DNA from: Sphaerolaimus hirsutus
Lineage: Eukaryota; Nematoda; Chromadorea; Monhysterida; Sphaerolaimidae
Length of the DNA: 64,000 nt
Reading direction: 5' to 3'
NCBI GenBank assembly: GCA_964036195.1
Contig: OZ038453.1
Location: 19,939,206 to 20,003,205, forward strand
Position 1 is the first letter of the stretch; each line of letters begins with the position of its first letter. Positions 2,780-62,488 of the stretch are shown here, in pieces. The notes beneath the pieces were generated by a model that saw nothing but the letters and a program-made list of their open reading frames with translations, searched no databases and had not been told where the DNA came from. Made by a program: the position numbers and the translations under genes.

Positions 2780-5700
2780 GTTTGTCCCTTGTATTTAATT
2801 ACAAATTGGCACTGTGCCAAAACTGCATAAAATATTCTTTATTATCTCGTCGTTTTTTAGGTGCGATACGGGATCAAGAAGCTGATCGAACTCGTCAGGA
2901 AAACGCCATTTGCTAATAATTCTCTACTAGAAAAAGCGAAACGTCACAGAAATTGCAAGAGAAATGGGGAATTGGCCACTTATTTGTGCCGGTGCGTTTT
3001 CATTTTCTGTCATGATTTAAAGTCATGGATTTGCGAAAGTAATTTCAAATAGTGTCATTTCTCTTCGGTGGATTTACACATGTGTGTTACATTACAATTA
3101 ATTACAATGCACGGTGTTTTTAACACATGCAAATGTGTGGGACGGAGTAGGGTGGCAGACGGTACGGCCTCGAGGTAAATTGTACGGTACGGTAAATTTT
3201 CAATTTTGCGGTAAACGGTACGGTAAAGTAAATTTTTCTAAAATTGCGGTAGGTTACAGAAAATTCTGCCACACCAGGAAGGAGTAAGGTCAACTGGGGA
3301 GTTTCATTCTAATATCCAAGTTTTTCGATTTTTCAAAATCGCATTTTAAAGTTTGACGCTGGCCCGACGACGCTATGTCTGGGGGACGACGCTTGCCCCA
3401 CACTTTTCAGATAGATCTGACATTTCTCTACAATTTTTGTAATCACAAATTTTGTTAGCCGGGAAATATTTAATTAGTTATGTGAGATTTTGTAAGTCAC
3501 CCAAAATTGGGAACAAATCTGAGCATTTGAAATTAAATGGTTAATAACGTCTTAACGGTGCATCGTAGGATAAAACGAATAACATCACTGCAGAGCCTGT
3601 GTCTAAAAGTACCTCTACCTAAATTTTCAGATCAATATATGCACGCATATTTGATTTATAGTGCAAAATAGATTTGGAAATTCACGTATGCATTTTTGGA
3701 AATGAAACTTTTTTTGTATGGGAATTCCGGCCAGCTCTTCGCGGCTGCGCCGAAGCACGCGTGCATTTTTGGAAATGGCACCTGGACGGTCGGTCTGGAA
3801 GGCTAGACGGCGGCCTGCCAGCACCGACGTGTGTAATCATCGGTGCTGAGGGAGGAGAGTGGCACGGGGAACGAGAGAAGTGGCCCTGGGAGAAAACCCA
3901 GGACCTCTCAGGCCCCGGGAACAAACCCAGGACCTCTCGCGTGGGAAGCGCGAGCTCACGCACTGCGCCACAGCTCAGTTAACAAACTTGCTGTTAACTG
4001 GGCTTAAGTATAAAAACTGCACGCGTGCAGTTCCACTTTAGCAGTCACGCCACGTGCAGTTTGATTCCGTACAAACGTATGAAAAGTTCCCTTGATATTC
4101 ATGCAATTCCGTACAAACGTATGAAAAGTTCCCTTGATATTCATGCACTGTTCCTTCATAAAGATGTAACAATCATACCATTGATATTAATGAATATTTA
4201 TGATGTCATGAGGGTAGCTGTAAAAGCGACAGTCTGCTGGCATCAGCGACACTGGCGTCGTCGTAGGCAAATTCGCCCCCCTTAGCCGTACATTCCCCGG
4301 ATTCTATACCTTTTTGAAACTCAGCAACCCCTGGCGTCGTCGTACAGTACAGTACATACAGTATGAAAATTCTGTCAATCTCCGGAGTTTCGGTACAAGC
4401 TACATATTAACTGTCCCTGAATCCAAAAAAGGAATTAACAACGGGAATTTTGCCCTGGCATACCTAGGGTTCAAACGGGATTGACTTTTCGGGATCGGGA
4501 TCGGGATTCACTTTTTGAGATTTCGGGATCGGGATCGGGATTGGGGTTTCGGGATCGGGATCGGGATTGGTTTTTTGAGATTTCGGGATCGGGATTGGCC
4601 GGGATTGGGGTCACGGGATCGGGATTGGGATAGGCATTTTTCCGGGATCGGGATTGGGTTCTAGGGATAGAGATTTTGGCCATTTTTCTGGCATTCACAG
4701 TTCTTCATAAAGGTCTCAAAACACTGTTGGATGCCAGAAAAGTGGCATAAAATTGACGCTGGGGGTTTGCATCCACTTTTTTGCATGCAAAAACGTCATT
4801 ATTTCACTTTCTATAATTCCCACTAATTTTTCCGGGATCGGGATCCCGGACTTGGGAGTTTCTCGGGATCGGGATCGGGATTTGAAAACTTTCGGGATCG
4901 GGATCGGGATTGGTATTTTTGAGATTTCGGGATCGGGATCGGGATTGGGGTTTCGGGATCGGGACTGGTAAATCCCGGAATTTCACGGGATCCGGGATCG
5001 GGATCGGGATCCCGTTTGAACCCTAGGCATACCCAGATCTGCAGGTACGCGCCGTCTGTTAGCCCATATGAAACTATTTTTTGGATATGTGCTCTTATGA
5101 AATGAAACTCCGGTGGTCCGAGATGGATATGTGCACTTACGAAATGAAGGTCCTGTTTTTCATAGGGGATCTGAGATGGATATGTGCACTTTCGATGTGA
5201 AAATTGTGATTTTTCTGAAAAACGGTACCACTGTATCTCGGGAACAAAATGGACTATAACGCTGATTTTTTTTTTAAATGTGAAAAACTATACGTGGAGG
5301 TCAAATCCACGCTTAACTCGATTTTTCTGTATTTGGCGCTTGTGAACTTTTAGAATGGAACTCCCCAACTGTTCAAATGTCAATTTATCATCATGTTTTA
5401 TCAGGGACGTATCCAGGATTGTTGAGCGGGGGTGGCTGTTTGTTTACGGAGCCTCGCGAACGGGGCTCAGCCCTCCCCCCTAAAATTTCACCTATAAAGT
5501 GACGGAATGGCGCCATCGTGCTGGCGCCACGCCATGGCGCCATTGGCGTTGGCGCCAGCGCCATGAAATGCTGTATATAACAGGGTTCAAACGGGACCAG
5601 TTTTTCGGACCGGGACCGGGACCAGAAATGTTCTAATGTCGGGACCGGGACTGGGGGGTCGGACCGGGACCGGGACTGTTTTTTTCAATTGTCGGGACCG

Positions 5701-8700
5701 GGACTGGGATTTGCCGAACCATATACCAGGACCGCGGTCTCGTTGTAACCGTATTGTTACGTAATATCCAGCCAATGTTGTTCCACACACCTCCACTGTG
5801 TGAAGGAACACTCAATGTATGAGCCTTTTCTTATAACATTCTTCAAGCATTATTCCATTAAGTCGTTTATATTTCATGAAAAGCAATGTATTTATGTAAC
5901 AAGTTAGACATAAGACTTGTAACAACACCTTAAATAGATTTTTTTGGCAGAAATCACCACTTATAATACTACAACATGGCTCCACAGCCATTATATTGCT
6001 ATATAAATAAATGACATCATAAAATACTGCTATTAGTATGACATATTTACGTGTATATGTTGACCACATTGTAACTATATTTGGGAGCCTTTGAAAAAAA
6101 TATTTTATTAAAAACAACAATTTTTTAAACCCAGGTCATTGAAAAATAAGTTTTTCTGCATGCCTTGTCGGGACCGCTATAAAATTCCAGGACTGGGACT
6201 GGGGGTTCGGACCGGGACCGGGACCGGGACTGGCTTTTTTTAATTGTCGGGACCGGGACCGCCCCAGTCCCGACTTTTTGCCGAACCATGTACCGGGACC
6301 GCGGTCCCGTTTGAACCCTAGTATATAAATGCAAATATACATACAAATACAGCCAAAAACACGCCGTCGAGTGTAGGGTTCAAACGATATATCGTATCGA
6401 ATATCGGATATCGACCATTTTTTAATTTCGAATATCGAATATCGATATCGAAAATTTTGAAAAAATATCGAATATCGAATAGCAATCAGGTTATCAGTAT
6501 GAACTGTAATATCTACCAATTGTTATTTGTCTGATACACTTTGATTCATCATGTTTTTCTTCTATTTTCTACCACTGAGTGATGTAAAGCTTGTTAAAAT
6601 CACTTGCACCATTCAAATTTCAGTAAAGAGATGATTAACCATGCGTGCAACCACATGAAAATACAATATGCCACTTGACCTTTCAGACTATACCAAAAGC
6701 AAGTTGCAATATCGAATATCGAAATATCGAATATCGACCATTTTTCAATATTGAATATCGAATATCGATATCGAGGTTCCATATCGTATCGATATCGAAT
6801 ATCGAGTTTCAAAAAAAAATATCGAATATCGATATCGAAAATTTTGAAAAAATATCGAATATCGATATCGAAAAGTCATATCGTTTGAACCCTAGTCGAG
6901 CGTATTTAAATGGATTTGCGCCTAAAATCAAGCAATATGTTGATATTCCTCATGTCGGGTTGGAAAATGCGCGCTTGCGCGTAAAATTTCTGCGTAACAC
7001 CTTGCAAAAAGGTACCGAAATTTTCCCGTGTTTTTCAGGTCTCACCCCGGTAAGGGGGTGGGGCTGCAGCCCCCCCCCCCCTCGATACGGCCCTGTGTGT
7101 TATTAAAGTGTACAACAAGGGATTGAAAAGCGTCGTTTTTTAAAATGGTGTTTTTTAATTACGTCTTCAGTTACGGTTATGAGTGAATGAGTGAACACAC
7201 GTATCCTATGTGACACTTTTCAGAAAATTGAAGACCGCCGCGTCTGACCTAGAATATGTGCCGACATCGATTCCCAAATCGACTCCTGTCGATAACAAGA
7301 CCAGAAAAGAGTCGCCAGAAAAAGAGAAAGAGTGTCCACAGCCCGAATTGCCACTAGAGGCAAATGTGGAAGTGAATGAGGAAATTGATGATCAGAAATG
7401 TGATCAGGATTTAGAAATCGATTTCGAGGCACAACGAGAAGGTGATCTAGAAGAAAAGGAATCGGGTTTGTATTTCATTTTTATGTACCGTATTTCCTCG
7501 AAATACCCCTGGGGGGTTTATTGTTTCAGAGTGAGAATTTTGAGGGGGTTTAAACGAGGGGGGGGTTTATTATTTCGCCAGAAATTTTTTGAAAACCAAG
7601 TACTAAATTGTCGTCTGAAACATACGCAGACGTCGAAATTGCAACAAAAATCGCCATTTATAAGACTCTAAAGACTTGTATAAGTGTGAAGACTTATAAT
7701 CACTGTTCTCACATAACAGAGTCATCGTTTTTAACGTGTGTTTTGCATTACCCAGATGACAAACCGCAGCCTTTGTCATTTACGTTCTCTATACACTAAA
7801 TTTGGGGGGGGGGTATTTCGAGGGGGGGGGGTTTATAAGTTCATAGTGTCCATTTTGAGGGGGGTATTTCGAGGAAATACTGTATTTACAATTTACCAAG
7901 TTTGTAATCCCGCCTAGGGATGGCCGGGGTTGTTTTTCAAAGGTTTTTTAAATAAAAGTTTTATAAAAAAACTGACAATCGAAACCGTTTTTTTAACAAC
8001 CTTGGCCAAAAAATGTTGTACTTAGCACTAGGGATGGCCAAGGTTTTTTCAAAGGTTTTTTAAAATAAAAAACCCAACGTCGCGGCGAACCCTTATAGGG
8101 TGGGTCGCCCTAAGTGCCAAAATTTTTATTGGCTTTTTTGGTGTCCCACACAGGTCCGGCCCCTACTGATTTCTGAGCTATGGGAGGGTATAAATCTAAA
8201 ATTTTGGGGATGTGTTACCAACACCCCTCCTCTACTATACACTATTAAAAAAACACCACCCCCAATAAATGGATGACAAAAGAATTCACGTTTTAGAACT
8301 TTTTTGTTATACACTTAAAGAGCTGGTTTAGGATACTTTAAAGGGAAGGGTTGGATGTTTAAAGTTATGTAAACAACCATACCTCTAAAATGCCTGCATT
8401 GCAAAATTTACTTGGGGGAATTTTATGACATCATAATGACGTCATTGCAGGAACAAAAATTTACAAAATTTACACTTTGAAATTCCAACGAAATTTCCAA
8501 CGAACTCTTTGAAATTGAAACGTGAATATTTTTGTCATCCATTCATTGGAGGTGGTGTTTTTTTAAAGAAAAAGTGAAATTTTAAGAAATTTTTCACAAT
8601 AATCTGACATTTTTGAATAGTGTATAGTAGGGGAGGGGTGTTGGTAAGGCGCTGAGCCGGTGCCCAAGTATGCCTGGTGCCCAAGTAAAGGGCACTGGGC

Positions 8701-11700
8701 GGCTCTTTACTTGGGCACCGGGCGGATGTTTACTTGGGCACCGGGCAGGTGCAAAAGCCCTGCCTGGTGCACAAGTATGGGAGCGATTGGGGGGCGATAG
8801 CGCATGGTAGCGATGGGAGCAGTGCAGATCACATACCTGCCCAGCATTGCTATTCTCATACAACATACCCCGAAACTTACTTTAAAAATTGCTGTGTGTG
8901 GAGCGCCATTTGGATGTCATGAATTAAGTATACTCGGCGGACATTACACTTAGTATGGAAACCTACCATAACTAGGGTGTCAAAAAAATTTTTTTATGGA
9001 AAACGGAAAGGTGAAAATTTTTAACTTTATGGAAAACGAAAAGGTAAAAAAAATTATTGGCCGGAAAACGGAAAGGTTAAAAAGTTTCCCTCAGCGGAAA
9101 ACGGAAAGGTAAAAAAAAATTATCGGCCGGAAAACGGAAAGGTTAAAAAGTTTCCCTCAGCGGAAAACGGAAAGGTAAAAAAAATTATTGACCAGAAAAT
9201 GGAAAAATGAAATGTCGGAAAACAGAAAGCGAAATTTTCACGGAAACGGAAAAAAAAGTGAAATTTGCATGGAAGTGAACAAATTTGCAGGAGGAAAACC
9301 TGCATGCAAGTTTGCCTGTTTGGCTTTGATTGTGGTAGCTAGCTGTACATTCTGCAACTATAAATCATGCCAGTAACTTCACTTCGCTTAACTGTACCAA
9401 CAAAAAGCATCAAAAGGTAGCAAAAGTGCACTACAACAACAATAAGAATTTAGCAAAAGTGAACTTTGATGTATCTGAACAGTAAAAAGTATACTCAGCA
9501 GACTGCAAAGGATGTGTCCAAAATTACTTTCTGTTTTTTACAGATTTGGATACAGATAAAAATTATGAACAACACAAGAACCTGGTAGTTAGAAACACCA
9601 TAGTGAAAAAATATAAATACAGATTGGAAAAATAATGGAAAAATGCCAGAAAACTGAAAATCGAGCCAGAAAATGGAAAAAATGGCCTTGAAAATGGAAA
9701 CGGAAAGGTAAAAAATTTTCAGCTGGAAAACAGCAAAATGGGCTGGAAAAACGGAGACGGAAAAGTAACAAATTTTCGGCTGCCGGAAAACGGAAAGGTA
9801 AAAAATTTTCCTGCGGAAACAGAAACGGAAATTTGACACCCTAACCATAACACATCTGAATAATGAATCAAAATTGATAGTTTTTCATTATAATATTTCG
9901 TTTTTGCTATGGAATAATTGATTATGAAATTAATTACAAAATTTTATTCATCAAATTATGGTCCGCCGAGAATACACACAACAAAATGCCACAAAATAAA
10001 TACACAAATGTAACTAAAATATGCCTGTGCACTAAAGTTCAAGTTCAACTAATGCACCAGTGTTGCCCAAGTTTTGCCCAGGTAAACAGCTGCCCGGTGC
10101 ACAAGTAAAGTGCACAAGTACGGGCACTTTACTTGGGCACCGGGCGTACTTGGGCAACGGTCTTTATACTTTGGCACCGGGCGTACTTGGGCACCGACCC
10201 ACGCCCATTGGTAACACATCCCCAAAATTTTAGATTTATACCCCTCCCACAGCTCAGAAATCAGTGGGGGCCGGACCTGTGTCGGACACCAAAAAAGCCA
10301 ATAAAAATTTTGGCACTAAGGGCGACCCACACTGTAAGGGAAGCGAATTCATGCGAAGTAGAGCGGGGTTGCGCCCATATCTCCCCCACGTTTCAGCTTT
10401 TGGCGCGCCCTAGAACTGAAGATTGGACATCAGAAAAAAAATCAAAAATGGGGGGCCAGACTTGATCGGGAAGGTGTTTACATAATAAGTTGACATAAAA
10501 ATGGATATTTTTGACAGAAATCAACACTTATATTGCTATCCCATGACTAGGGTTGGCACTTGATTTTTTAACTGATTTTTTTTAATCACAGGGTGGAAAC
10601 TGATCTTTATCAAAACAAATCAAAATAAAAAATTTATGGTAGACTTGCACTAGGTATTTTGCAATTTTTTTGCGTGCAAGCGCGCAATTTCCAATACACA
10701 TCATCATTGGTGGTGTTCATAAGTTTTGGGGCATTTTTAGTGTAAAAGATTGCATTTATTCATGGTACGGTGTAATAATAAGTCGTGACAGGGGTCTCCT
10801 AGGGGGGGGGGGGGGCTGCGGGGCTGCCCCCCCCCAAATCCGCCAGCTATCTATCTATCCCCGAGGCCGCTCAGCTATCTATCTATCTGGAGTGGTTTTT
10901 GAGATATTTTGCCTAGGGTTGGCCGATGTTTTTTTTTAAACGTTTTTTTAATAAAAAAAACGTTTTTTTTAAAAAAAACATGACGTCCGAAATGTTTTTT
11001 TTTAAAAAAAAAACATCGGCCAAAATTTTTAGTACTAAGCACTAGGTATTTTGCAAAATTTTTGCGCGCAAGCGCGCAATTTCACACACAAATTGACATT
11101 GGTGGTTGTTTTCATTGGTTTTGTTGCATTTTTAGTATCAAAACATCCATTTCTATGTGCTACCATGGGTGAATAAGCCGACATATGTTGCTGTAATATA
11201 GAATATTGAGGTAATAAGCTTCCATGTACCTCCACAGTGTGTATCTTCACTCCCAAAGTAACAACCTCCTTTTATAACCTTGTTTGATCACCATTCCGTG
11301 CCAAACTTTACCTGAAGTCACAAACATTCGACTATAAGGCGATATACGAACGATATGTCTACGAAAAATGGATATTTTTAACACAAATCACCACTTATAA
11401 TGCTATCCCATGGCTCCACAGCTATTATATGGTCATATTTAACATCACAGAGTATTGCCAGTGTCTGATATACCTATATATGTTGACACTAGGTCATATC
11501 TGGGAGCTTTTAAAAAAAACGTTTTTAAAAAAACAACAACATTGAGTTAAAAAAAAACGTTTTTTTTCCAACCCTAATTTTGCCCCAATTTTCACTAAAA
11601 ATCACCAATTTTCGCACCTTTTTTATAGTTTTTCACCTTCAAAATCATGCTCTCTGGCTATATGCATGGTTATATGCCTGTTTTGAATCATTTTAAAACT

Positions 11701-14700
11701 ACTTTTGGCCACTTTTAACCAATTAAAAGCGATTTTTTTCCCCTTTCGGCCTTCTATGCACTGAAAAAGCCTATATATTTTGTCCCCGTGAGCCCCCCCC
11801 CCAAGCCCCCCCAGTAAATTTATTCAGCTATCTATCCCTCCAGAGGAGCGATTTGCTATCTATTGAGCCCACGCGAGGGCCAAAATTTTGGAGACCCCTG
11901 AGTCATGATATGCTAGTGTAGTATATAATATCCAGCCAGTGGCGCCATGGCGTGGCACCTACAAATGGCACCAGCGCCATGGCGCCATTCCCCTACCAAA
12001 GGGGTAAAATTTTAGGGGGGGGGGGGCCCGTTCGCCCGGCTCCTATACAATCCGTCCCCCCGCTCAAAAATCCTGGCTACGTCCCTGGCCATTCCCTTAC
12101 CACAGGGGTCAAATTATAGGGGGGGGGCGCCCCCCCCGTTCGCTGAGCTCCGTATACAATCCGCCCCCGTGCTCAAAAGGCCTGGCTGATCCCTGATCAC
12201 TGGCAATGTATTAGCCTTCTCTAACAACCTTATTTAAGCACTATTCCATGCTGAACTTCACTTGAAGTCACGAACATTCGACAAAAGGCAATATACATAA
12301 TAAGCAAGGACGTATCCAGGGGGCAGGGGGCTATGTAAATATACGTACATTCACAGCGAAATGTACATTATTGGGTGCATTTTCTGGTATATGTGTACAT
12401 GGAGACCGATATGCTGAAAATACCATGTGTTTAGGGAGTAAATGCGCGCAAAATTTTTGTATACACCATCGAAAATTTGTACTAAAAGTTGCATTTTCAG
12501 TAGGGTTGGGACGATATATCGTATCGAATATCGGATATCGACCATTTTTTCATATCGAATATCGATATCAAAAATTTTGAAACAATATCGAATATCATCC
12601 ATTTTTTCGATATTTTTCGATATTCTGAAAATCGTTTTGACCTGTTTTTGATCCCATAAAAATGGGCGAAGCCAACAAAAAGTGGACGCTGCAGCCATAA
12701 CATGTGTATGCTTTTGAATGCACAAAGTAATATCTCATCATATAAATAGCATGCCATTATTACATTGAGCTACCAACAGTAGGATATGAAGGGTAATGTA
12801 TACACACCCTTAAAATACACGCTATTAATAAAGGAAACTGCATCACACAGAAACAATTTCAAGAAACAAGAAATTTTCGCAGTCTTTTTAAATAAAATGC
12901 AAAAAGCCAGCCACCCCTAGTTACAAGTATGAAATGTAAATGTCTGCTGAATAATTTATCACCTGATTTAATTAGATTCATCCTGTCCTTATTTCATCCT
13001 CTCATTTTGACTGTTGTGAGACTCATTTAAAAAGATGATCAACCATGTTTGTGACCAAACGGAGATACAATATGCCCCATTGCATGAAAATATCGAAATA
13101 TCGAAAATATCGAAATATTGATATCGAATATTGAGCATATTTTCATATCGAATATCGATATCGAATATCGAAATATTGATATCAAATATCGAGCATATTT
13201 TCATATCGAATATCGAGGGTCCATATCGTATCGATATCGAATATCGAGTTTCAGAAAAAAATATCGAATATCGATATCGAAAAGTCATATCGTCCCACCC
13301 CTAATTTTCAGGGGGGTTTCATGTCTCACCCCGGGAAGGGGGGGGCTGCAGCCCCCCCCCCGCCCCCCTGGATACATCCTTGTTGGAAATGAATACATTT
13401 TTGTGACTTTCGCTGTATATGTATGCATATTTACATACATATAAAGCGGTTCCTGGCGCTGGCGCCAACACCGATAGCCCCATGGCGTGGTGCCTTTGTA
13501 TGGCGCTAGCGCCAGGAGCCGTTTTATATGTATGTAAACATGCATACATATGCAGCGAAATTCGCAATAATGTGTTAATTTCCGAGGATATTGGTTCGCA
13601 GGGGCCGATCCGTTGAAAATACAATGCATGGGGAAGAAATTGCGCGCTTGCGCGCAAATTTTTTAAGAAACATCGGAAAATATATAGGAAAATATGCATT
13701 TTCCGGGACTTTTTGGGTCTCACCCCGGGAAGGGGGGGGGCTGCAGCCCCCCCCCGCCCCCCCCTTGGATACGTCCTTGCTTAGCGGTATTCTTAAAAAC
13801 CTACTCCGCTTAAATACACCCTTCCCAAAAATGAGATATTGAGGGGTGAAATCTTAAAAAGTTAGTAGATTTCGTCCAGGGAAGGAAATTAGTAGTAAGT
13901 AAAATTTAGCAATGTTTTTTAAATTTTGCCCCTCAAATTCTCATGTTTGGGTGGGTGAATTTAAGCGGTGTAGGTTTTAAAAATACCGCCAAAGATTTCT
14001 CTTTCTGGTGGAAGCATTTTCTGTGTTAATAGATGTAAGATGAGGAGATAAAATGATCACAATCACAGCTGATCGTGATCCGCAGTACAAAACAGTGCAA
14101 ATTGAAAATATCCTAATCTTATTTCTGCCTGTAAATAAGCCATTGAAATGGCATTTGGCACTAAGCCAGGACTCTGTTCTATGTTTCGGCCAAATTCTGG
14201 CCTTGAAAAACAGACTATATAAGATTTGGAGCTACCATCCGGACCGAGGTAAACACTGCATTTTGGTATAAAATTGCGTGGCCCGCTTACACGGCCCACG
14301 CGGCGTTATATTGGGGGGCGATCCGTACATCATGTAGACAACTCTTTGGGCAATTTTTTGAGTCGGGTCAATTTTCCCGAAAACTTTACAGGGGGGCGTG
14401 AACGAAACGTTTAAAAAAAATTCACAACCATCCGGATCGAGGTAAACAAGGGTTTATCTGGGAACTTTTGAAGAAGAAGAAAACGGTTTTATCTTTTAAA
14501 TAAAATCCTGTTTTTGAAAACCTTGTCGTTGAAAAAAAACTTTTTCGGATATCCCTAATTCCGCCACGTGAAATTTTTTACCTTTACATTTTTCGGCGCC
14601 AAAAATTGACCGCGATTTAAACGCTGTTTTAAAACGCTCTTAATCCCTATTTATGTAAGCCTGTTCATCACTCTAGTGTAAATTTTGTAAAAAATTAAAA

Positions 14701-17700
14701 ATACTTTTTTTGCAGGCACCCCCGTCCAGGAATATGACCCGGAAGATTACTGTATCAAAAAATCCGGACAGTCGAGTAAAATTCCGATTCCAACATTTAG
14801 CAGTGGCTCAAATTCAGAATCAGAAGTCTCCAAAATGGAGAGGGACATAACTCCCGAGAAAAAAGTCGCAAAAAATTCTGAAAAGTCTGAAAATAAAAAG
14901 GAAAGTAAAAAAGACAAACCGAAAACTGAGTCAAAGACTGAGTCAAAATCAAAATCAAAAACTGAGAACAAAATTGAAAAGCCAAAACACACAGAAAAAA
15001 GTGCCAAATCAGAAACAAGCGTGAAATGTGACAAAACTGCAGAATCAAAATCTAAACCAGAACCGAAAAAGCGGGTTATTTGTGACGCTGATGTTTTTAA
15101 CGATCCTTTTACTAGCGCTTTAGCTGAGGCTGAGAGTTCAGTGAAACCCAAGAAAAATAAAAAGAAACGAAAACATGATGATAAAGAGATGGATCGCGAT
15201 TTGAAGACTCCTTCGATGGGTGAGATTTTGGGAATGTGATTCAAATAGCTGGAATTCGTAACTTGACTCCATTAACAAATGCATGGAAACACTTGTCCGG
15301 CTGGCACTCACGCAAGTCAAGTGTCAAATGTCATGCAAAACATTTTACATGATATTTAGCAAATACAATATTTAACATTTACTGACATTTCACATGGCAC
15401 ATTGATATTTGACTTTGCACTCTACAGGGTGCGGGAATGAAGAATGTGCAGCCCGGCCTCCCCAAGTCATGCAAAATGTATTTATATACTGTATCTCCTT
15501 GAATAAGACCTCCCTCTTGAATAACACCGACTTGAATAACTCCCCCTGTTGGCCAGGCGAGGAAAAAATATTCCCCCCTTGAACAACTCCTCGCTTTGTG
15601 TATTCTGAATATGGTTCGAACGATATGACTTTTCGATATCGATATTCGTTATTTTTTCTGAAACTCGATATTCGATATGGAACCTCGATATCGATATTCA
15701 ATGTTAAAAAATGGTCGATATTCAAAATTTTGATATTTTCGATATTCGATATTGCAATTTGCTTTTGGTACAGCGAGGCAAATTTCATATGGCATATGTA
15801 TTTTCATGTGGTTGTACACATCATCTCTTTACTGAAATGTGAATGGAACAAGTGATTTTAAAAAGGTTTACATCAGTCAAAAGTAGAAAATAGAAGAGAA
15901 ACATGATGAATGAAGTGTATCTGTCAAACAACAATTGGTAGATATTACAGTTTTTATACTTATATCCAAATTGCTTAATTCATGTTGCAAAAAATAGCAT
16001 ATCAGCAAGTTCAGGCTTCAAATTGAGCACTCCAACAAAATTACATTATAAATACTGTACTTTTACTCATCAAATAAAATACTATAAGTAAATCAGATCA
16101 ATCGCAAATATCTCAAAATGAAGATAACTTTAATTAGGGACACAATACAGGTTCGATATATTGAAAAAATGGTCGATATTCGATACTGATATTCGATATT
16201 TTTTCAAAATTTTTGATATCGATATTTGATATTTTTTCTTAAATTTTCTTTATGGATATTCGATATTGAAAAATGGTCGATATCCGATATTCGATACGAT
16301 ATATCGTTTGAACCCTAATTTTGAATGTATCCACAAATTCGTTCTAAAATAATGCGTTTAAAAGAGCAGGTCACATTTAGCAAACTGAGCGAATTTCATT
16401 CAAAAAAGTTCCAAATTTCTCCGCATCAATCAATAAAACAAAATTTAAAACTTACAGACCTGGACGATTCGCTTGGCACGCTGCCAAAATTGCCAAAAAT
16501 TGAGGCTCCAAAATTGGACTGGGGAAGTGTGCTTGACACCCCCGAGGTCAATTACAAACATGTACCTCAGAGGAACCTTCGTTAGTGCTTTTTTATTTTT
16601 TATTTCAATATCTCAATTCAATTAAATGATTTCAATAATACGGCAAGTTGTGATTTTTTTGATTGGCAAAAGCTCTGGGCACCCTCCAAACAACCGTTGT
16701 AAATATTCATTTGCCATTTTACAGGGCATTTTACTTGAGTTTGACACTTTTCATGACATATTCCAGGGCATTTTACATGACATTTGACACATTGAATTTC
16801 ATTTGACATTTTACAGGGTCTGGTTTTGTCCCCTGAATGCCTAATAAAAACCTAATCCAAGTTTCTGAATCCACCATTTCACATTTTAACTAATTTATTA
16901 CAAATTTTCCAGCCGGCCCATCTTCAAGTGCGAGCGCAAAAGCAAAAGCGCAACAATGCAATGACACTTCATATTTGGCCGAAGCGCTGAGCATGCGGAA
17001 ATTCCAGTCCGGAAAACAAACCGTCTACAGTGGCAAAAGAAAGGGAGTTTTGCACCAATCTGGCGAGGTGCCAAGTTTGAAAGAATTGAGCTTGGCGGTT
17101 ATTGGGACCAATTTGGATGGTTCGTTTCGAGTTTCCGTCGGAAATTTTGTAAAATATCAATATCGGCAATTTTTTCGATATGTATTGTGGCATGAAATTG
17201 AAAGTTCATGTTTGACCTTTTTGCTATTCACCTATTTTTACCTATTTACTATTTACCTATTTGGGGAGTTTCATTCCAAAAACGCGTATATCCACAATTT
17301 TCAATTTTTCAAAATCAATTTAAAGTTTGACAATGGCCCGACGGCGCTATGTTTAGGCGACAAAGCTTGCCTTGCACTTTTCAAATAGATCCGACATTTC
17401 TCTACAATTTTTGTAACAACAAATTTTGTTGGCCGGGAAATATTCAGGGAGTTATGTGAGATTTTGTAAATCACCCAAAATTGGGAACAAACAGTGGCGT
17501 AGCCTGGGGGGGCGGGGGGGGGGGCGGCCGCACCGGGTGGGGGAATGTACGGCCACGTACGGTGTGTTTTCGTGCCACGATTTTGGGGTCAATTTTCAAA
17601 AATTTTGCGAGCAAGCGCGCATTTGTGCTTCACATTACAGGCATTTTTATATCACAGGTCACGATTGGCCCAAGCTGGGTGAAAATGCACTCAATTCTAT

Positions 17701-38000: not shown

Positions 38001-38099
38001 CTGGCTGTCTGGCTTGGCTCATTACCCCCCCCCCCAATCGCAGCACAACGTGGCGCTTTTTTCGAGTAATAAAATGAAAAGTCATGTGACAAACAAATA

Positions 38100-44519: not shown

Positions 44520-44782
44520 TAGTGATGTGAAAAGCGCCATGGAGATTTTCCACCCCCTAGCGCCAAGCGCCAATGGCACCAGAGCAAAATGGCGCCAAGC
44601 GCCAGCGCCGGGCATTTTGTTCCTGATGCCGGGCGAAAATAGCGCGAAGCGCCAAAAGCGCTGTGGCGCTTTTCAAGGGCATGGCAAGCGCCAATAGCGC
44701 CACAGCATAATGGCGCCACGCGCAAAAAGTGCCATGGCGCTTTTTACTTTGGCGCTAGCGTCATGGCGCTTTTACACCACTA
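44520..44782. mobile_element. Family K MITE (GGCGCCA-type arrays), 263 bp
   Basis: The ends are TAGTGATGTGAAAAGCGCCA and GCGCTTTTACACCACTA. The duplication ATTATGTG is perfect (44512-44519, 44783-44790). The rest is AAGCGCCAATGGCGCCA-type words. Confidence 0.92.
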
Positions 44783-45276: not shown

Positions 45277-45938
45277 TAGGGTTGGTCGATGTTTTTTTTA
45301 AACGTTTTTTATATTAAAAAAAACGTTTTTTTATATAAAAAACATGACGTCCGAAATGTTTTTTTTTTTTTTAAACATCGGCTGGAATTTTTAGTACTAA
45401 GCACTAGGTATCTTGCAAAATTTTTGCGCGCAAGCGCGCAATTTCACACACAAATTGACATTGGTGGTTGTTTTCATTGGTTTTGTTGCATTTTTAGTAT
45501 CAAAACATTCATTTCTATGTGCTACCATGGGTGAATAAGCCGACATATGTTGCTGTAATATATAATATTGAGGTAATGTGCTTCCATGTACCTCCACAAT
45601 GTGTAACTTCACTCCCAAAGTAACAACCTCCTTTTATAACATTGTTTGATCACCATTCCGTGCCAAACTTTACCTGAAGTCACAAACATTCGACTATAAG
45701 GCAATATACGAACGATATGTCGACGAAAAATGGATATTTTTGACACAAATCACCACTTATAATGCTATCCCATGGCTCCACAGCCATTATATGGTCATAT
45801 TTAACATCACAGAGTAATGCCAGCGTCTGATATACCTATATATGTTGACACTAGGTCATATCTGGGAGCTTTTAAAAAAAACGTTTTTTTTATCAAAAAA
45901 ACATCGAGTTAAAAAAAAACGTTTTTTTTCCAACCCTA
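45277..45938 (+). mobile_element. Family A MITE
   Basis: The ends are TAGGGTTGGTCGATG and CCAACCCTA. The duplication TGCATGAC is perfect (45269-45276, 45939-45946). It inserted into a TTTTGACACTTTGCATGAC repeat of the AAAGTGTC type. Confidence 0.93.
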
Positions 45939-46405: not shown

Positions 46406-47222
46406 TAGGGTTCAAACGGGACCGCGGTCCCGGTACATGGTTCGGCAAAAAGTCGGGACTGGGGCGGTCCCGGTCCCGGTCCCGGTCCCGGTCCCGACAC
46501 CCCAGTCCCGGTCCCGGTCCCGGTCCCGACAATTGAAAAAGGCCAGTCCCGGTCCCGGTCCCGACCACCCAGTCCCGGTCCCGGTCCCGGAATTTTTCAG
46601 CGGTCCCGATAAGAAAAATTTACCGGACTGGATCCAAATTTTGCTTTTTAAATACTTGTAAAATTTGAAAAAATTCGCGCCAGTCGGCGCATTCTCATTC
46701 CGTCAAACGAATTTTTGACGTTTTTTTAGTGAGTTCCAAACATTCTCATTCATGTTCGACATCAGAGAAGGCTGAAAAATTTATTTTCCTTCAGAAAGCA
46801 CTGCACCAGCTTATGTATCAATACTCACTGTCATAATTTTCGTGCATTATCTTGCAGTGCAGTGTCTTTTTTTGTGACTCAATTGAATTTTGTGACTTAT
46901 ATAATATTTTTGATGACAATTTTGATTGAATGAAGTGTGAAAATCGTATGAAACTTCTGAAAATATGCATTCAAATGGTTATCGGTCCCGATAGGGCTCA
47001 AAATAGGGCTGTGGTCCTGGTACCTGGTTCGGCAAATCCTGGTCCCGGTCCGGATGCCCCAGTCCCGGTCCCGGTCCCGGTCCCGACAATTGAAAAATGC
47101 CAGTCCCGGTCCCGGTCCCGGTCCCGACCACCTAGTCCCGGTCCCGGTCCCGGTCCCGATAAGAAAAATTTCTGATCCCGGTCCCGGTCCCGGTCCGAAA
47201 AACTGGTCCCGTTTGAACCCTA
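46406..47222. mobile_element. Full-length family B MITE, inverted relative to 18512
   Basis: The ends are TAGGGTTCAAACGGGACC and its complement. The duplication ATAACATT is perfect (46398-46405, 47223-47230). Large GGTCCC arrays flank a core shared with 18740-19105. Confidence 0.94.
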
Positions 47223-48092: not shown

Positions 48093-48118
48093 TATGGGTT
48101 GGGAACCCGTCCCGACCC

Positions 48119-48749
48119 TAGGGTGTCAAAAAAAATTTTTTACGGAAAACGGAAACGGAAACGGAAAAAAAATTTCAGCCGCCGGAAAACGGAACGGAAA
48201 ACGGAAAAAAATTTGCACTTGGCGGAAAACGGAAACGGAAACGGAAAAATTTTTTCAGTGGTCGGAAAACGGAAAAAGGGGCCGGAAAAACGGAAACGGA
48301 AAAATGGAATTTGCATGGAAATGGAAAAATTTGCTGAAATTTTGCCATAAAACACGATAAAATTCACTGAAATTTTGCTGGAAACAGTATTTTTTTTACA
48401 TAATTGACAATCTGCACGATTGTTTACCAGTTTGGCTGGACCAGAAACCAGAAAGTTGAGCCAGAAAAGGGTAAAAAAAGGCGGAAAGCAGAAAATTGAG
48501 GCGGAAAACGGAAAAAAGGCGGACAAACTGAAAATTGAGCCGGAAAACGGAAACAAGGCGGAAAAACTGAAAATTTAACCGGAAAACGGAAAATGAGCCG
48601 GAAAAACGGAAACGGAAAAAAAGGTGGCCGGAAAACGGAACGGAAAATGGAAAAAAATTTTCAGCGGCCGGAAAACGGAACGGAAAACGGGAAAAATTTG
48701 CCTGCGGAAAACGGAAACGGAAAACGGAAAACGGAAATTTGACACCCTA
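48119..48749. mobile_element. Family D MITE (GGAAACGGAAAC arrays)
   Basis: The ends are TAGGGTGTCAAAA and TTTGACACCCTA. The duplication CCCGACCC is perfect (48111-48118, 48750-48757), itself one F word. Confidence 0.92.
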
Positions 48750-48887
48750 CCCGACCCGAACCCGATACCCGCACACTTTTTGGAACCGAAAATTTATACC
48801 CGAACCCGATACCGAAAATTTTGCTACTACCCGAACCCGATACCCGACCTCTATACCCGAACCCGATACTCGCGAAATTTTTGGAAC

Positions 48888-50070
48888 CAGGGGTCTCCAA
48901 GATTTTGGACCTCGCGGGGGCTGGATAAATAGCAAATCGCTCCTCCCGAGGGATAGATGGTTGTAAAAATTTTCTGGGGGGGGCTCGCGGGGGCAAAATA
49001 TATAGGCTTTTTCAGTGCATAGAAGGCTGAAATGGGAAAAAATCGCTAGTAATCGGTTAAAAGTGGCTAAAAGTAGGTTTAAAATGGCTAAAAATAGGTA
49101 TATAACAATTTATATAGCCGGAAAGCACGATTTTGAAGGTGAAAAACTATAAAAAGGTGCGAAAATTATTGATTTTGAGCGAAAATTCGGGCAAAATTTC
49201 TCAAAAACGACTCCAGATAGATAGATAGCTGAGCGATTTGGGGGGGGGGTCTTTGGGGGTAGTAGCTAGGGTTGGCCGATGTTTTTTTTTAAACGTTTTT
49301 TTTTTTAACGTTTTTTTATTTTAAAACATGCCGTCCGAAATGTTTTTTTTTAAAAAAAACATCGGCCGAAATTTTTAGTACTAAGCACTGGGTATTTTGC
49401 AAAATTTTTGCGCGCAAGCGCGCAATTTCACACACAAATTGACATTGGTGGTTGTTTTCATTGGTTTTGTGGCATTTTTAGTATCAAAGTATCCATTTAT
49501 ATATGCTACCATGGGTTAATAAGCCGTCATATGTTGCTGTAGTATATACTATTGAGGTAATGTGCTTCCATGTACCTCCACAGTGTGTAACTTCACTCCC
49601 AAAGTAACAACCTCCTTTTATTACAATGTTTGATCACTATTCCGTGCCAAACTTTACCTGAAGTCACAAACATTCGACTATAAGGCGATATACGAACGAT
49701 ATGTCGACGAAAAATGGATATTTTTGACACAAATCACCACTTATAATTCCCATGGCTCCACAGCCATTATATGGTCATATATAACATCACAGAGTATTGT
49801 CACTCTCTGATATACCTATATATGTTGACACAAGGTCATATCTGGGAACTTTTAAAAAAAACGTTTTTTTTTAAAAAAACGTTGTTTTTTTTAAAAAAAC
49901 GTTTTTTTTTTTTAAAACATCGAGTTAAAAAAAAAACGTTTTTTTTTCAACCCTAGTAGTAGCCAAAAATTTTGCCTCGGGATATATAGATATTTAGCTG
50001 AGCGGCCTCCGGGATAGATAGATAGCTGGCGGATTTGGGGGGGCAGCCCCCCCCCCCTAGGAGACCCCTG
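48888..50070. mobile_element. Family P element, inverted, with nested A
   Basis: The ends are CAGGGGTCTCC and GGAGACCCCTG. The duplication TTTGGAAC is perfect (48880-48887, 50071-50078). GATAGATAGCTGAGCG words show the orientation is opposite to the copy at 40227. Confidence 0.92.
49267..49955 (+). mobile_element. Family A MITE inside P inside F
   Basis: The ends are TAGGGTTGGCCGATG and CAACCCTA. The duplication GTAGTAGC is perfect (49259-49266, 49956-49963). Confidence 0.93.
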
Positions 50071-50159
50071 TTTGGAACCGATACCCGATACACGACCCAA
50101 AATTTTTAGGACCCGATTCCCGATACCCGAACCCGAAAAGTTTGAAATTCCCAACCCTA

Positions 50160-52850: not shown

Positions 52851-53960
52851 TAGTGATGGAAAAGCGCCAGGAAAAATGGCGCCATGGCGCCATTCAAAAG
52901 ATTGGCGCCGGGCGCCAGAGAAAATGGCGCCAGGCGCCTATGGCGCCATGGCGCCATCTGAAAAAATGGCGCCGGGCGCCAGTAACAATATGGCGCCAAG
53001 AATAATATTCCTTATTGCAGCCTGTATATAACCATGGAAGCATTTATACTAGAGCAATATGCTATACAACTTTTCTGATGGTGACTCAAGCAATAAAACT
53101 CATCTTATCATTAATATTATTTACCATAGTTCCTTGGAATACACCCAGGGGGGTTATGATTCCGGCAGCAAATTTTAAGGGGGTTAATTCAAGGGGGCTT
53201 TTATTTATGAGGGGGTCTAGTATTTCGCCAGAACTGGTCTATTATTTCAACATTACTTACTTGTAAACATACTCATATTATACCGTCAGATGCAGATAAA
53301 TTCAACAATAACATAGATGCATAAGTGTCTATAAGACATATTTTATTTGCTTGAGCAATCGCCCCCCCTTGAATAGTTCCCGCTTAAAGAGGTCTACCGT
53401 ATGTTTTCGGATAAAACCACCTCAAACTACCCCCTGGTTTGAGCGAGCTGGAGAAATAATAAACCCCCGCCCCTGAAGGTATTTCGAGGAAATACGGTGC
53501 ATTGTAATTAGGTAATCAATGATGTAAGGGCGAGGATAAAATTCTTTTAGATGGACATTTTTCTAATTGTTGGTCATATTTGAAGATTCGCAATTTATGT
53601 GGTATAAAACCATCAACAAGAACACAAACTTGTACTGCTTGAAATACTTGCAATATTGCAATACAAAGGTGAATGTGTTAAATACAGCATAAATGGTATC
53701 ACTTAGCAGATTAATAATGGAATATGGAAAATATGACCGTTCATCCCGGCAACTTGGCGCCATTTCCGGGGCCATCCAAAACAATGGCGCCGGGCGCCAA
53801 ATTGGCGCCAGCAAAAATGGCGCCAAGCGCCATGGGCGCCATGGCGCCATTCGAAATAATGGCGCCAGGCGCCAGATGGCGCCACAGAAAAGGGTGCCAA
53901 GCGTCAATGGCGCGATGGCGCCATGAAGGGCGCCAGCGCCATGGCGCCATTCCATCACTA
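52851..53960. mobile_element. Family K element (GGCGCCA arrays), 1.1 kb
   Basis: The ends are TAGTGATGGAAAAGCGCCA and TGGCGCCATTCCATCACTA. The duplication GACCTAGT is perfect (52843-52850, 53961-53968). AATGGCGCCGGGCGCCA words occur at both ends. The core (53020-53700) holds Q-type debris (TACCGTATGTTTTCGG, AAATACGGTG). Confidence 0.9.
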
Positions 53961-58270: not shown

Positions 58271-59180
58271 TATACTCGGCAGACCGCAAAGTATGCGCCC
58301 AAAGTTATTTATGTCTTGGTGGATAACGCGCTAACTGGATACTTATGTGTATGCACTTTCACAAAAAGAAAAATATTTAAAAAAGAAAGAGGCGGAGTCG
58401 CGTACAAATGAGGAATGTTTTTCCCTGCATGTTTTTTTTTCGTTCGAATTATTTTAATTTTATTAATGATGACGTCATGATGGAGTGTTTCCTTCAGAAA
58501 AATGCATAGCATGATTAGGGTTGGCCGATGTTTTTTTTTAAACGTTTTTTTTTTTTTAAAAACATGACGTCCGAAATGTTTTTTTTTTAAAAAAAACATC
58601 GGCCGAAATTTTTAGTACTAAGCACTAGGTATTTTGCAAAATTTTTGCGCGCAAGCGCGCAATTTCACACACAAATTGACATTGGTGGTTGTTTTCATTG
58701 GTTTTGTTGCATTTTTAGTATCAAAACATCCATTTCTATGTGCTACCATGGGTGAATAAGCCGACATATGTTGCTGTAATATATAATATTGAGGTAATGT
58801 GCTTCCATGTACCTCCACAGTGTGTAACTTCACTCCCAAAGTAACAACCTCCTTTTATAACCTTGTTTGATCACCATTCCGTGCCAAACTACCTGAAGTC
58901 ACAAACATTCGACTATAAGGCGATATACAAACGATATGTCGACAAAAAATGGATATTTTTGACACAAATCACCACTTATAATGCTATCCCATGGCTCCAC
59001 AGCCATTATATGGTCATATTTAACATCACAGAGTATTGCCAGTGTCTGATATACCTATATATGTTGACACTAGGTCATATCTGGGAGCTTTTAAAAAAAA
59101 ACGTTTTTTTTAAAAAAAAACATCGAGTTAAAAAAAAACGTTTTTTTTCCAACCCTAAGCATGATGCGGTCCGCCGAGTG
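58271..59180. mobile_element. Family U element split by a family A element
   Basis: The left end TATACTCGGCAGACCGCA and the right end GCGGTCCGCCGAGTG are separated by the A insertion. It contains ATTAATGATGACGTCATGATGG. Confidence 0.82.
58516..59157 (+). mobile_element. Family A MITE inside U
   Basis: The ends are TAGGGTTGGCCGATG and CCAACCCTA. The duplication AGCATGAT is perfect (58508-58515, 59158-59165). The 73-codon minus-strand frame is intact. Confidence 0.94.
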
Positions 59181-59721: not shown

Positions 59722-60018
59722 GTGCATTCTAGTGATGGAATGGCGCCATGGCGCTGGCGCCCTTTAATGGCGCCAAAGGGCGCCAGCGCCATGGCGCCAT
59801 TGGCGCTTGGCGCCCTTTTCTCTGGCGCCATCTGGCGCTTGGCGCCATTATTTCGAATGGCGCCATGGCGCCCTTGGCGCTTGGCGCCATTTTCGCTGGC
59901 GCCCGGCGCCATTGTTTTGGATAGCGCCAGAAATGGCGCCAAAATTCCGACAATAAATGTGACCAAATAGGACATTTTTGGACATTTTATCATAGTTTGT
60001 CACACAAAGCAGTCAATG

Positions 60019-61369
60019 TACCATATTTCCTTGAAATGGCCCCCTCGAAATACCCCCAGGTTTTTTCGAGCTGAGTAAAAAATGACCCCCCTCGAAATAT
60101 CCTCGTCTGGAATAAGGTACCTCATTTACAAATGTACATGATGTATTAATCGATGCCAATATGCAGCAAAACCACACATAGACTACGTAGCCATCTACGT
60201 TGATACGGGCGTGGGTCGTTGCCCAAGTAAAACCGGTGCCCAAGTACGCCCGGTGCTCAAGTATAAAGACCGGTGCCCAAGTGCGCCCGGTGCCCAAGTA
60301 AAGTGCCCGTACTTGTGCACTTTACTTGTGCACCGGGCGGCTGTTTACTTGGGCAACACTTGGGCAACACTTGTGCATTACCCGTTACACGCCGCGTCTC
60401 TGCAACTGGCGACGCCTGCATCTGCGTGCTTTGGGGTATATTGTATGAGAATAGCAATGCTGGGCGGGTATGTGATCTGCACCAAAGTTGGCAAAATTTC
60501 AGAAAGTAATATATATAAAAAAATAGAAAACTGGAAGAAAAAAAATAAAATGGAAAATTTCAAAATAAAAATTGTACAAAATTTTTGTAAAATGGTCCCA
60601 TTTTATTATATTATTTTTTTGGAATAAAATAAAATAAAAACAAATGAGAATAAGATTAAAATAAAATACATTTTTATACAATTTGTATACAAGTGATTTT
60701 TATAAAACCAACCCTGATCTGCACCGCTCCAATCGCTCCCATATGCTATCGCTCCCATACTTGTGCACCGGGCAGGGCGCTTGCACCTGCCCGGTGCCCA
60801 AGTAAACATCCGCCCGGTGCCCAAGTAAAGAGCTGCCCGGTGCCCAAGTACAGACACTTTACTTGGGCACCGGGCGTACTTGGGCACCGGAAATTATACT
60901 TGGGCACCGGGCGTACTTGGGCACCGGTTTTACTTGCGCACCGGCTCAGCGCCGTTGATACATCTAAAAATATCCTGTTTTGTCCCTTTCATTACCAGTT
61001 TTGGGGATGTAAAAGCCGATCTTCACTGCGATCTGTACAAAATTTCAGGGGAAGTTATACAACCACCCCTCGAATGAACCCCACCCCCTCGAATAAACCC
61101 CACCCCCTCGAAATGCCCCCCTCTAACTGTGACATAACTTTGCACTCTATCAAAAATAAACCCCCTATGGGTATTTCAAGGAAAGGTAAGGCAAGGTATA
61201 GTTGCGATGTAAATTGACAGCCGTTAAAACATCATGTTCATTGCAAACATGATGTACCTTTTTACAGATGGGGGGGTGTGGAGTGGGGGGTATTTTTTCC
61301 CCAGCTCGCTCAGACCTTGGGGTATTTCGAAGGGGCTTTATTCAAAGGGTATTTGGAGGAAATACGGTA
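60019..61369. mobile_element. Family Q element with a nested M element
   Basis: The left end is TACCATATTTCCTTGAAATG and the right end is GAGGAAATACGGTA. CCCTCGAAATACCCCC words occur at both ends. The M element interrupts it at 60207. Confidence 0.78.
60207..60953. mobile_element. Family M element (GGTGCCCAAGTA arrays), inverted relative to 8648
   Basis: It starts GGGCGTGGGTCGTTGCCC and ends GGCTCAGCGCC. The duplication GTTGATAC is perfect (60199-60206, 60954-60961). The core has TATTGTATGAGAATAGCAAT, shared with the first copy, and an AAAATAAAA-rich stretch. Confidence 0.9.
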
Positions 61370-62016
61370 ACATATTGCTCTTCTAAAAAAGCTTCTGTTA
61401 TGATATACATGCTAAAATAGTGACTTTTACCGTTGGCGCCATTTTGGCGCCCGGCGCCATTTTTCCTGGCGCCCTTTGGCGCCCGGCGCCATTTTTTCAG
61501 ATGGCGCCATTGGCGCTTGGCGCCATTTTCTCTGGCGCCCTTTGGCGCCTGGCGCCATTTTTCCTGGCGCTTTTCCATCACTAGTGCAGTCTCATCATAA
61601 ATGGTGAAAATATTTTTTTAAATATCTTTTTGTGTTGGGAGTATTTACGCAATAGGCACTATCACCATTGTGGCGCCATATTGCGCTACACCATGGCGCA
61701 AATTTATCACTTTTTTGTAAATTTGTGTAAATAAACTACAATGCGGAACTTTCGATAAAAAAGTTACTGTTGTCATCAGAAATGCAGGTGGCCGTCAAAC
61801 AAAAATAAATTCGCGTAAAGGTCAAAAGAACTTTTTTTAAAGTGATTACCGTATTTCTTCCAATAGAATACCGCCGTTAACTTTTTACGTGCCGTTCTAT
61901 TGAAGGTGTCGTCTTATTAGAGGGTGCCGATCTTTTTTACCAATATTTTTCACACATTTTTTATTTGAACATCGTTTTATTTTTGTATGAACCTGTAAGC
62001 ATGTTTCACCATACAT

Positions 62017-62488
62017 CAGGGGGAGGAAAGCGGGGTTGGTGGGGGAGGTTCCCCCCCCCCCAAAATCGCACAGCTATCTATCTATCCCAGAGGCAACATT
62101 TTGTGCTACTATCCCCTAAATATCCCCCCAAATCAGTCAGCTATCGACGTATCTGAAGCGATTTTTAAGAAACTATACCCCAATTTTCGCTCAAAATCGC
62201 TATTTTTCATACCTTTTTTATAGATTTTTTTACCTCCAAAATCACTAGTTCATGTGTCTAACTGCCTATTTGCAGTTATTTGTAGTACTATATGTGCTTA
62301 TATACCCATTTTGAGCCATTTAACACCTACTTCTAGCAATTTTTTGCCCTTTTCTTCCTTTACACCTCGAAAAAGCCTATCTATCGAACCCCCGCAACCC
62401 CGCCCCAAATTTTTTTTTTCAGCTGTCTATCTATCTCGGAGGCTATCCATCCAACCCCGCCGGAGGGTCAAAATTTAGCATACTCCTG
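62017..62488. mobile_element. Family P element
   Basis: The ends are CAGGGGGAGG and CATACTCCTG. The duplication CCATACAT is perfect (62009-62016, 62489-62496). GCTATCTATCTATCCC words are present. Confidence 0.9.

Follow-up and report, generated by a model that had tools for sequence, protein, structure and literature searches.

Candidate non-autonomous hAT families with arrays of short CpG-bearing words inside both ends

The reading of subterminal repeats by hAT transposases is known mostly from single elements. The transposase of Ac from maize reads the hexamer AAACGG (PMC3260210), the BED finger of Hermes from the house fly reads AAG(T/C) (PMC10368747), and in Herves from Anopheles C(G/A)ATTCAT and also four direct repeats of CGATTCAT are bound (PMC3143072). 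Here we describe a DNA stretch of 64,000 bp (C4:19939206-20003205 of a genome of 348 Mb in 762 contigs), referred to as the window, in which several word-array families occur together in one genome. The window is densely filled with small non-coding transposons, for the most part of the hAT type. Most of the families are in all probability non-autonomous hAT elements, namely miniature inverted-repeat transposable elements (MITEs) and longer deletion derivatives, and their words are most likely subterminal sites read by the matching transposase.

Ac/Ds of maize shares with these families the 8-bp target site duplication (TSD), short terminal inverted repeats (TIRs), several CpG-bearing hexamers inside both ends and the existence of internal-deletion derivatives (PMC3260210). 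Each of the 20 copies read of our family C contains the Ac hexamer AAACGG itself, in 20-24 repeats that keep to a single strand. Different from Ac/Ds are the dense arrays, their running one way across the whole element in most families, and the presence of several words per genome. Hermes is comparable in that its subterminal repeats (STRs) are bound by the BED fingers of a transposase multimer and in that the authors conclude that end asymmetry matters; they report the antisense orientation for STR2-7 of the left end and the sense orientation for STR1-5 of the right end (PMC10368747). Its repeats are, however, only 4 bp long, scattered and free of CpG, and whether its layout matches a one-way layout depends on how the right end was written. 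Herves is similar in that a single motif, C(G/A)ATTCAT, recurs at its two ends; this motif is said to occur "several times" with variants, and the part of the paper at hand describes no long arrays (PMC3143072). The mar elements of Drosophila are also short non-coding hAT derivatives, for which no word arrays are described in the available part of the text (PMC3517528). One-way word arrays in hAT MITEs are not described in titles and abstract openings of the open literature, Repbase and subscription journals having been outside the scope of this search. The families can be looked upon as a possible catalogue of transposase recognition words. With three of them assignable to a transposase lineage, one could look in sequence data for a code that relates words to BED-type fingers.

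Insertions, tips and word arrays

Six intervals had been quoted in the initial annotation as hAT-like insertions with perfect 8-bp duplications (4465-5025, 26420-28911, 44520-44782, 46406-47222, 52851-53960, 60207-60953), and all six carry them. One of these, 26420-28911, is more complex than a single insertion: its own TSD is perfect, but it holds two separately duplicated insertions and measures 1249 bp without them. Independently of chosen examples, ends of the form TAGGG, TAGTG, CAGGG or CAGTG were paired with their inverse 150-3000 bp away and the length of the exact flank match was determined. Among the 505 pairs, lengths of 0 to 7 bp were found in 325, 103, 38, 8, 4, 3, 2, and 1 pairs, respectively, a length of 8 bp in 21, and a greater length in none, whereas 30 Markov-4 simulations gave a mean of 0.03 pairs at length 8 (maximum 1). 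The insertions are real.

Candidate places were counted genome-wide in a first look (A, 1,628; C, 3,527; B, 3,363; E, 3,564; G, 3,078; F, 1,966), the numbers being rough and 40 places being scored per family. Among the scored places we read 28 A copies, including the one in the window, as well as 20 C, 20 B, 12 E and 10 G copies, and for 10 F copies the ends only; these were the top-ranked copies or, for B, E, and F, those matching to both ends or nearly so, which biases the sample towards intact copies. L111, whose TSD is identical to that of L110, was left out of the CpG and conservation counts and L141, L143, and L144 out of the E alignment, and nested inserts were excluded from the word counts in D and E. 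Perfect TSDs were present in all 28 A, all 20 C, and all 10 G copies and in 15 of 20 B copies; of the 12 E copies, nine had a perfect TSD, one had a TSD with one mismatch and two were without a recognised end pair. A lack of consistent duplications, which the initial annotation had named as evidence that would speak against its view, was thus not encountered in the sampled copies of these five families. Two A copies share one TSD and may represent one duplicated insertion; two E copies also share one. For A2 and D, an 8-bp TSD was seen in one window copy each, and for D', whose window copy is without an intact TSD, a perfect one was found in the genome copy L130.

The TSDs of hAT elements generally follow the pattern nTnnnnAn and their tips the form T/CA(A/G)NG. 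Among 81 pooled TSDs of A, B, C, E, and G, position 2 is T in 60% and position 7 is A in 64%, the two combined in 33. The tips of A, A2, B, C, D, D', E, and G are TAGGG or TAGTG and fit this form, altered tips being present in some single copies (e.g., L081, L089, L091, L105, L107, L141, L144 and the left tip of D' in the window). The tip TAGGGTTCAAACG is common to A (word CGGGACC), A2 (CGGGATC) and part of B (ATATCGA), other B copies ending with TAGGGTTGGGACG. C (CGGAAA) has the tip TAGGGTGTCAA, D (GAACCG) the left tip TAGGGTTGGGGAACC and the right tip TAGGGTAGGGAATTT, D' (ACCCGA) the tip TAGGGTTGGGAA, E (GGCGCC) the tip TAGTGATGGAA, and G, with AACGTT inside T and A runs, the tip TAGGGTTGG. 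Ends of the TAGGG/TAGTG type do not extend to F (word CCCAAGTA, tips GGGCG/GGCGC) nor to two further families with 8-bp duplications, one characterised by CAGGGGTCTCC and the other by CAG(G/T)G(A/G)CGTA(T/G)CCAGG, which have CAGGG/CAGTG ends.

Family F was not filed as hAT and may well belong to another superfamily. Its ends, GGGCGTGG on one side and GGCGCTGAG on the other in 10 of 10 sampled copies, deviate from T/CA(A/G)NG; a perfect duplication of at least 8 bp was found in nine of these copies, and its arms of approximately 150 bp are inverted with an identity of approximately 84%.

A scan for 6-mer arrays yielded 56 clusters in the window, not all of them from these families, versus 0, 0, 0, 0, and 0 in Markov-2 and 0, 0, 1, 0, and 4 in Markov-4 simulated sequences. 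Most words in the window lie in elements of their own family: CGGGACC 85/90, CGGGATC 24/31, ATATCGA 70/87, CGGAAA 86/119, GAACCG 28/43, ACCCGA 14/31, CCCAAGTA 18/19, and GCGCCA 101/182. Clusters of at least four words outside these elements are formed in the window by two words only, one by the A word and eight by GCGCCA. The sole A cluster turned out to be another, small A element at 41646-41792, flanked by ATCCCAAC. The notion of a family-specific word fails for GCGCCA: 81 of its 182 copies are outside E, and four of the eight outside clusters are within elements with CAG(G/T)G(A/G)CGTA ends, each with 6-10 words, which shows that this word is not private to E.

A arrays belong to A elements. 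On contig C1, 26 A clusters lie in the stretch covered both by the first 100 arrays and by the first 100 exact tips; among these listed matches 19 clusters are bracketed by an exact inward-facing tip pair, six have one exact tip and one has none. Arrays lacking tips at equal frequency, the other observation by which the initial annotation was to be judged, were therefore not found for A, the family examined in this respect. Of tip pairs less than 2 kb apart among the 100 exact tips listed, 31 are convergent and none is divergent; 38 of these tips lack an exact convergent partner at such a distance. The listed pairs span 130-1,550 bp, five of them only 130-257 bp; in the window, too, there are copies consisting nearly entirely of array, namely A elements of 147 and 235 bp and an E element of 263 bp. 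Genome-wide, the A tip with at most one mismatch is found at 7,784 sites, the reversed pattern used as control at none. Viral contigs were considered as carriers of A tips and dismissed as unrelated: none of the 25 stretches found was accompanied by a second, matching tip closer than 1.5 kb, and 400 bp of their sequence held one array word at most. Also the proposal that the arrays seed satellites found no confirmation, the longest of the 33 A-word clusters formed by the first 100 exact matches of one word on one contig being 1,152 bp.

In most families tested the arrays have the same direction at both ends while the tips mirror each other, which corrects the earlier description of the arrays as inverted. 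In the 28 A copies GGGACC is present 324 times forward and 0 times reverse in one arm and 348:0 in the other (672:0 in total, tips excluded); in the 20 C copies the ratios for CGGAAA are 350:0 and 295:0. In B one direction predominates, though less cleanly, with ratios in the two arms of 20 copies of 109:35 and 168:2 for AATATCG, 153:66 and 254:71 for ATATCGA, and 99:34 and 154:0 for TATCGAA, the majority direction being mixed in 2 of 20 elements. ACCCGA is found 22:1 in the D' copy L130 and GAACCG 28:0 in the D copy of the window. The word of E is palindromic; its A- or T-rich spacers have mostly the same direction in both arms in all 10 elements with recognised ends among the 12 read, the one exception being an opposed spacer in L146. 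When the two arms of an element were aligned with each other, the direct sense gave the better fit in all 11 window elements tested from families A, A2, B, C, D, and E; for the single F tested it was the inverted sense, and three G showed no clear direction. Grouping of the first 100 exact A arrays on contig C1 gives 33 clusters, and all 23 of them with sites more than 300 bp apart keep to one strand. If the direction of the arms were decided by the toss of a coin, five independent families all with direct arms would be an event of approximately 3%, which is suggestive of, though not proof for, a function of the one-way layout. One-way arrays between inverted tips mean that the two ends differ in identity, in agreement with the asymmetry that the Hermes work calls important (PMC10368747).

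Transposase lineages and the function of the arrays

A genome-wide profile search found the hAT dimerisation domain PF05699 at 28 places, twelve of which carry no word label. Fragments of the domain are enclosed by nine C elements with tips and TSD (eight perfect, one with one mismatch), by one B element (TSD with one mismatch) and by a D' element of 2,832 bp with the perfect TSD GCAGAGGG. In a domain tree the four domains associated with B words form one clade (support 0.92) and the eleven associated with C words are split from the rest (0.77); the identity between B and C domains is approximately 50% and that of the D' domain to either approximately 30%. The C domain copies are amplified relatives and there are, therefore, three word-to-lineage links rather than sixteen. 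The domain sequences thus support, for each of the three words (B, C, and ACCCGA), what appears to be a different transposase lineage. The idea of one transposase per word is in so far borne out for three words with a placed domain, and lacks a counterpart for A, A2, D, and G, for which none was placed.

The C MITE of 565 bp aligns to positions 1-319 and from 997 onward of the domain-bearing C element L034, the middle being absent. Since it matches both flanks of this element without the middle, it arose by internal deletion; among the MITE families derivation from a coding relative is seen for C alone. The families are short, non-coding and present at thousands of sites, and C in addition has its tips in common with a coding relative. 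Together with the TSDs and their pattern, the tips and the dimerisation domains inside C, B, and D' elements, this upholds the designation of the elements as hAT-like MITEs. Two loci deserve separate mention. At L062 (1239-8908) there is a 3.8-kb tandem duplication with 99.8% identity, each copy of which holds a hAT dimerisation fragment of another lineage. At L064 (1118-8209) two long open frames of 1131 and 922 codons are found, with C-word arrays at approximately 4280-4540 and 5220-5480 around their junction.

In each family the short inverted tips are followed on their inner side by an array in which a single CpG-bearing word, 5-7 bp long, is clustered over approximately 100-250 bp. By analogy with the characterised systems, the N-terminal BED-type finger of the matching hAT transposase would read the words, many word copies providing a cooperative landing platform for a multimeric transposase, whose catalytic part would cut the tips and paste the element, leaving a staggered duplication of 8 bp. 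Binding of the words by the matching transposase is most likely, as deduced from the relatives, and the copies would have moved in trans. The B word contains the site of DREF, TATCGATA, 3-6 times per copy (PMC6179265).

Several observations weigh against this reading. At the domain places L048 and L052 (C words) and L041-L043 (B words) the words lie in the vicinity, without a tip pair and TSD. An unlabelled domain is up to 88% identical to the D' domain, L040 being its tree neighbour, and no ACCCGA array is present in the 5.3 kb read around L040. No A, A2, D, or G arrays bracket any of the 28 PF05699 places within about 1.5 kb, and no transposase was found for A. The link for E is one-sided: the domain of L036 and the nearest E-type right tip are separated by approximately 430 bp, in which GGCGCC occurs just twice, and the left end of this element was not found. 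The BED finger PF02892 was detected at 10 places, none near a PF05699 place, and neither a complete transposase gene nor an autonomous copy was found; the protein that would read the words is thus missing. In Hermes, a symmetrised element was not rescued when its first three repeats were made asymmetric again, and mutants of the inner repeats keep approximately 70% activity (PMC10368747). GCGCCA occurs under two tip kinds, which shows that a word need not mark one tip type. Finally, words are clearly more conserved than spacers only in E: when word columns were compared with array spacers, the observed conservation was reached by 0 of 418 circular shifts in E, by 85 of 443 in A, 33 of 347 in B, and 23 of 422 in C. 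A spacing of three helical turns common to the word clusters was considered and rejected, the autocorrelation peaks being scattered (approximately 18-42 bp and longer).

Some of these findings would be expected if the arrays were mutational by-products, a seed word beside the tip having grown by slippage or gap repair and the direct layout having arisen by copying of one arm onto the other, with the tips sufficing for movement. The weak conservation of words over spacers in A, B, and C, word positions that vary between copies, and GCGCCA arrays under two tip kinds agree with this explanation, as does E, in which a palindromic word goes along with one-way spacers, a layout not accounted for by a need to bind words in a given orientation. 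We nevertheless consider by-products rather unlikely, since 25 of the 26 A clusters are beside one or two exact tips (listed matches) and since the hAT elements that have been characterised bind repeats of this kind inside their ends or require them (PMC3260210, PMC10368747, PMC3143072). There is only a slim chance that the elements, in part or as a whole, come from a different superfamily that also makes 8-bp duplications, such as P or Merlin: the GGGCG ends and inverted arms of F and the failure to place a transposase for A, A2, D, and G would fit, whereas the hAT dimerisation domains within C, B, and D' elements and the TAG(G/T)G tips combined with nTnnnnAn duplications point to hAT. It is hardly conceivable that the arrays are ordinary microsatellites or satellites with unrelated short inverted repeats in or beside them by chance. 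The arrays are tandem and of short period, and there are the 38 listed A tips without an exact convergent partner; however, chance repeats would give neither the TSD spike at 8 bp nor, among the listed A matches, 19 of 26 clusters bracketed by tips, 31 convergent versus 0 divergent pairs, and no cluster longer than 1,152 bp.

CpG in the words and a possible role of methylation

The words of all nine families (A, A2, B, C, D, D', E, G, and the approximately 17-bp unit of F) contain CpG, whereas approximately 20-23% of tandem 6- or 7-mers drawn at random from the background would be expected to do so. Some families are related and the longer F unit is likelier to contain CpG by chance, so that perhaps six or seven cases are independent. 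The hexamer AGATAG of elements of the CAGGGGTCTCC family is without CpG. Among BED-type and hAT proteins, CpG-holding sites are given for DREF, ZBED1, BEAF (CGATA), Ac, and one form of Herves, and sites without CpG for Hermes, Tol2, and Tag1, in the parts of the literature available.

In bulk, CpG is not depleted (observed/expected 0.96-1.01). In the interiors of A, CpG transitions amount to 7.7% per site versus 0.36% at other C/G (21-fold) and in those of G to 5.0% versus 0.27% (18-fold). In A arms the excess was 3- to 5-fold before gap filtering; over C as a whole it was 5-fold. After gap filtering, 10 of 474 CpGs were changed in the left arm of A (approximately 1.1% per base versus 0.78% at other C/G), the excess being almost gone, and 28 of 560 in the right arm (other C/G 0.30%), where it persists, as it does in both C arms, with 22 of 367 and 17 of 331 versus 0.33% and 0.13% at other C/G. 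The contrast within A (50 of 322 CpGs changed in the interior versus 38 of 1,034 in the arms) could reflect protection by the array or the hiding of changes by the alignment of repeats. Of the 50 interior changes, 47 are in columns with more than two copies changed, indicating that common ancestry contributes. In the more diverged families the CpG excess is 1.5-fold (B) or absent (E). The idea of methylation was weakened by the background value of 0.96-1.01 and then revived by the CpG changes in young copies.

One-way CpG arrays might act as a strand-specific methylation switch, although we think this quite improbable. In this model, which is built by analogy, copies methylated in the germ line would give hemimethylated daughters after replication, of which a strand-discriminating transposase, such as that of Ac, would move one sister and could gain a copy each time; several families would have converged on it. 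Because the words are one-way at both ends, one daughter would be permissive at both ends and the other non-permissive at both. In E, whose word is palindromic, the layout is one-way as well, although the switch would not require it; this fits the model poorly. The one-way layout renders the concept of replication-timed, methylation-read transposition outside plants testable.

Annotated elements of the window

The elements delimited in the window are compiled in Table 1. Nesting is deep: D holds C and G; D' holds C and a CAGGGGTCTCC element, itself entered by G; E holds F; and F holds C.

Table 1. Elements with word arrays in the window (positions within the window)
Family	Position	Strand	Remarks
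A2	4465..5025	+	TIR TAGGGTTCAAACGGGA; TSD GGCATACC perfect; GGGATC 22 forward, 2 reverse
A	5581..6320	+	TSD GTATATAA perfect
B	6374..6894	+	TIR TAGGGTTCAAACGATAT; TSD GTCGAGTG/GTCGAGCG
F	8648..10206	.	CCCAAGTA words; GGCGC/GGGCG ends; TSD 7/8; interrupted by C element; ends by eye
C	8973..9843	+	TIR TAGGGTGTCAAA; TSD ACCATAAC perfect; words 18 forward, 0 reverse
G	10914..11576	.	TSD ATTTTGCC perfect; nested in CAGGGGTCTCC element 10789-11900
B	12501..13303	+	TIR TAGGGTTGGGACGATAT; TSD ATTTTCAG perfect
B	15610..16317	-	TSD ATTCTGAA/ATTTTGAA; left end by eye
A	18512..19303	+	TSD with 2 mismatches; words 25 forward, 1 reverse
A	25609..26033	-	CTGGTGAT duplication common with next element; ends by eye
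A, minimal form	26042..26276	-	235 bp; TSD CTGGTGAT
D	26420..28911	+	TSD CTGTCCAG perfect; words 28 forward, 0 reverse
G, nested in D	26744..27405	.	TSD TTCACGAT perfect
C, nested in D	28044..28608	+	TSD GCCATGAC perfect; words 32 forward, 0 reverse
G	38730..39413	.	TSD ATCGAGAG perfect
A, minimal form	41646..41792	+	147 bp; tips TGGGGTTCAAACGG left, TTTGAACCCTA right; 8-mer ATCCCAAC on both sides; by eye
E, minimal form	44520..44782	.	GGCGCC; TAGTG ends; TSD ATTATGTG perfect
G	45277..45938	.	TSD TGCATGAC perfect
A	46406..47222	-	TSD ATAACATT perfect; on + strand GGTCCC 28 times, GGGACC once
D'	48093..50159	+	left end degenerate; TSD not intact; limits by eye; inserts: C 48119-48749 and CAGGGGTCTCC element 48888-50070 holding G 49267-49955
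C	48119..48749	+	TSD CCCGACCC perfect; words 36 forward, 0 reverse
G	49267..49955	.	TSD GTAGTAGC perfect
E	52851..53960	.	TSD GACCTAGT perfect
G	58516..59157	.	TSD AGCATGAT perfect
E	59730..61583	.	interrupted by F 60207-60953; TSD GTGCATTC/GTGCAGTC
F	60207..60953	.	CCCAAGTA; TSD GTTGATAC perfect; inverted arms; GGGCG/GGCGC ends

Between 25601 and 26284 the 8-mer CTGGTGAT is found three times, in the order 8-mer, A, 8-mer, A, 8-mer, with both A elements in the same direction. The layout looks as if one A had inserted into the duplication of the other or as if the unit had been duplicated.

The CAGGGGTCTCC-type family is represented at 10789-11900, 21641-22004, 40227-41174, 48888-50070, and 54164-55085, with 8-bp duplications (one copy with one mismatch); G-runs adjoin one end in several copies and CTATCTATC repeats are present. 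Elements with CAG(G/T)G(A/G)CGTA(T/G)CC ends are at 17492-17952, 29678-30121, 30859-31305, and 5402-7095, also with 8-bp duplications, that at 5402-7095 with one mismatch. A stretch at approximately 33.7 kb, read by eye, presumably corresponds to an exon of a proteasome alpha subunit, and the host genome is eukaryotic and probably that of an animal. A further pair of short-word arrays (GTACGCACAAACGCC) lies at 37852-38597.

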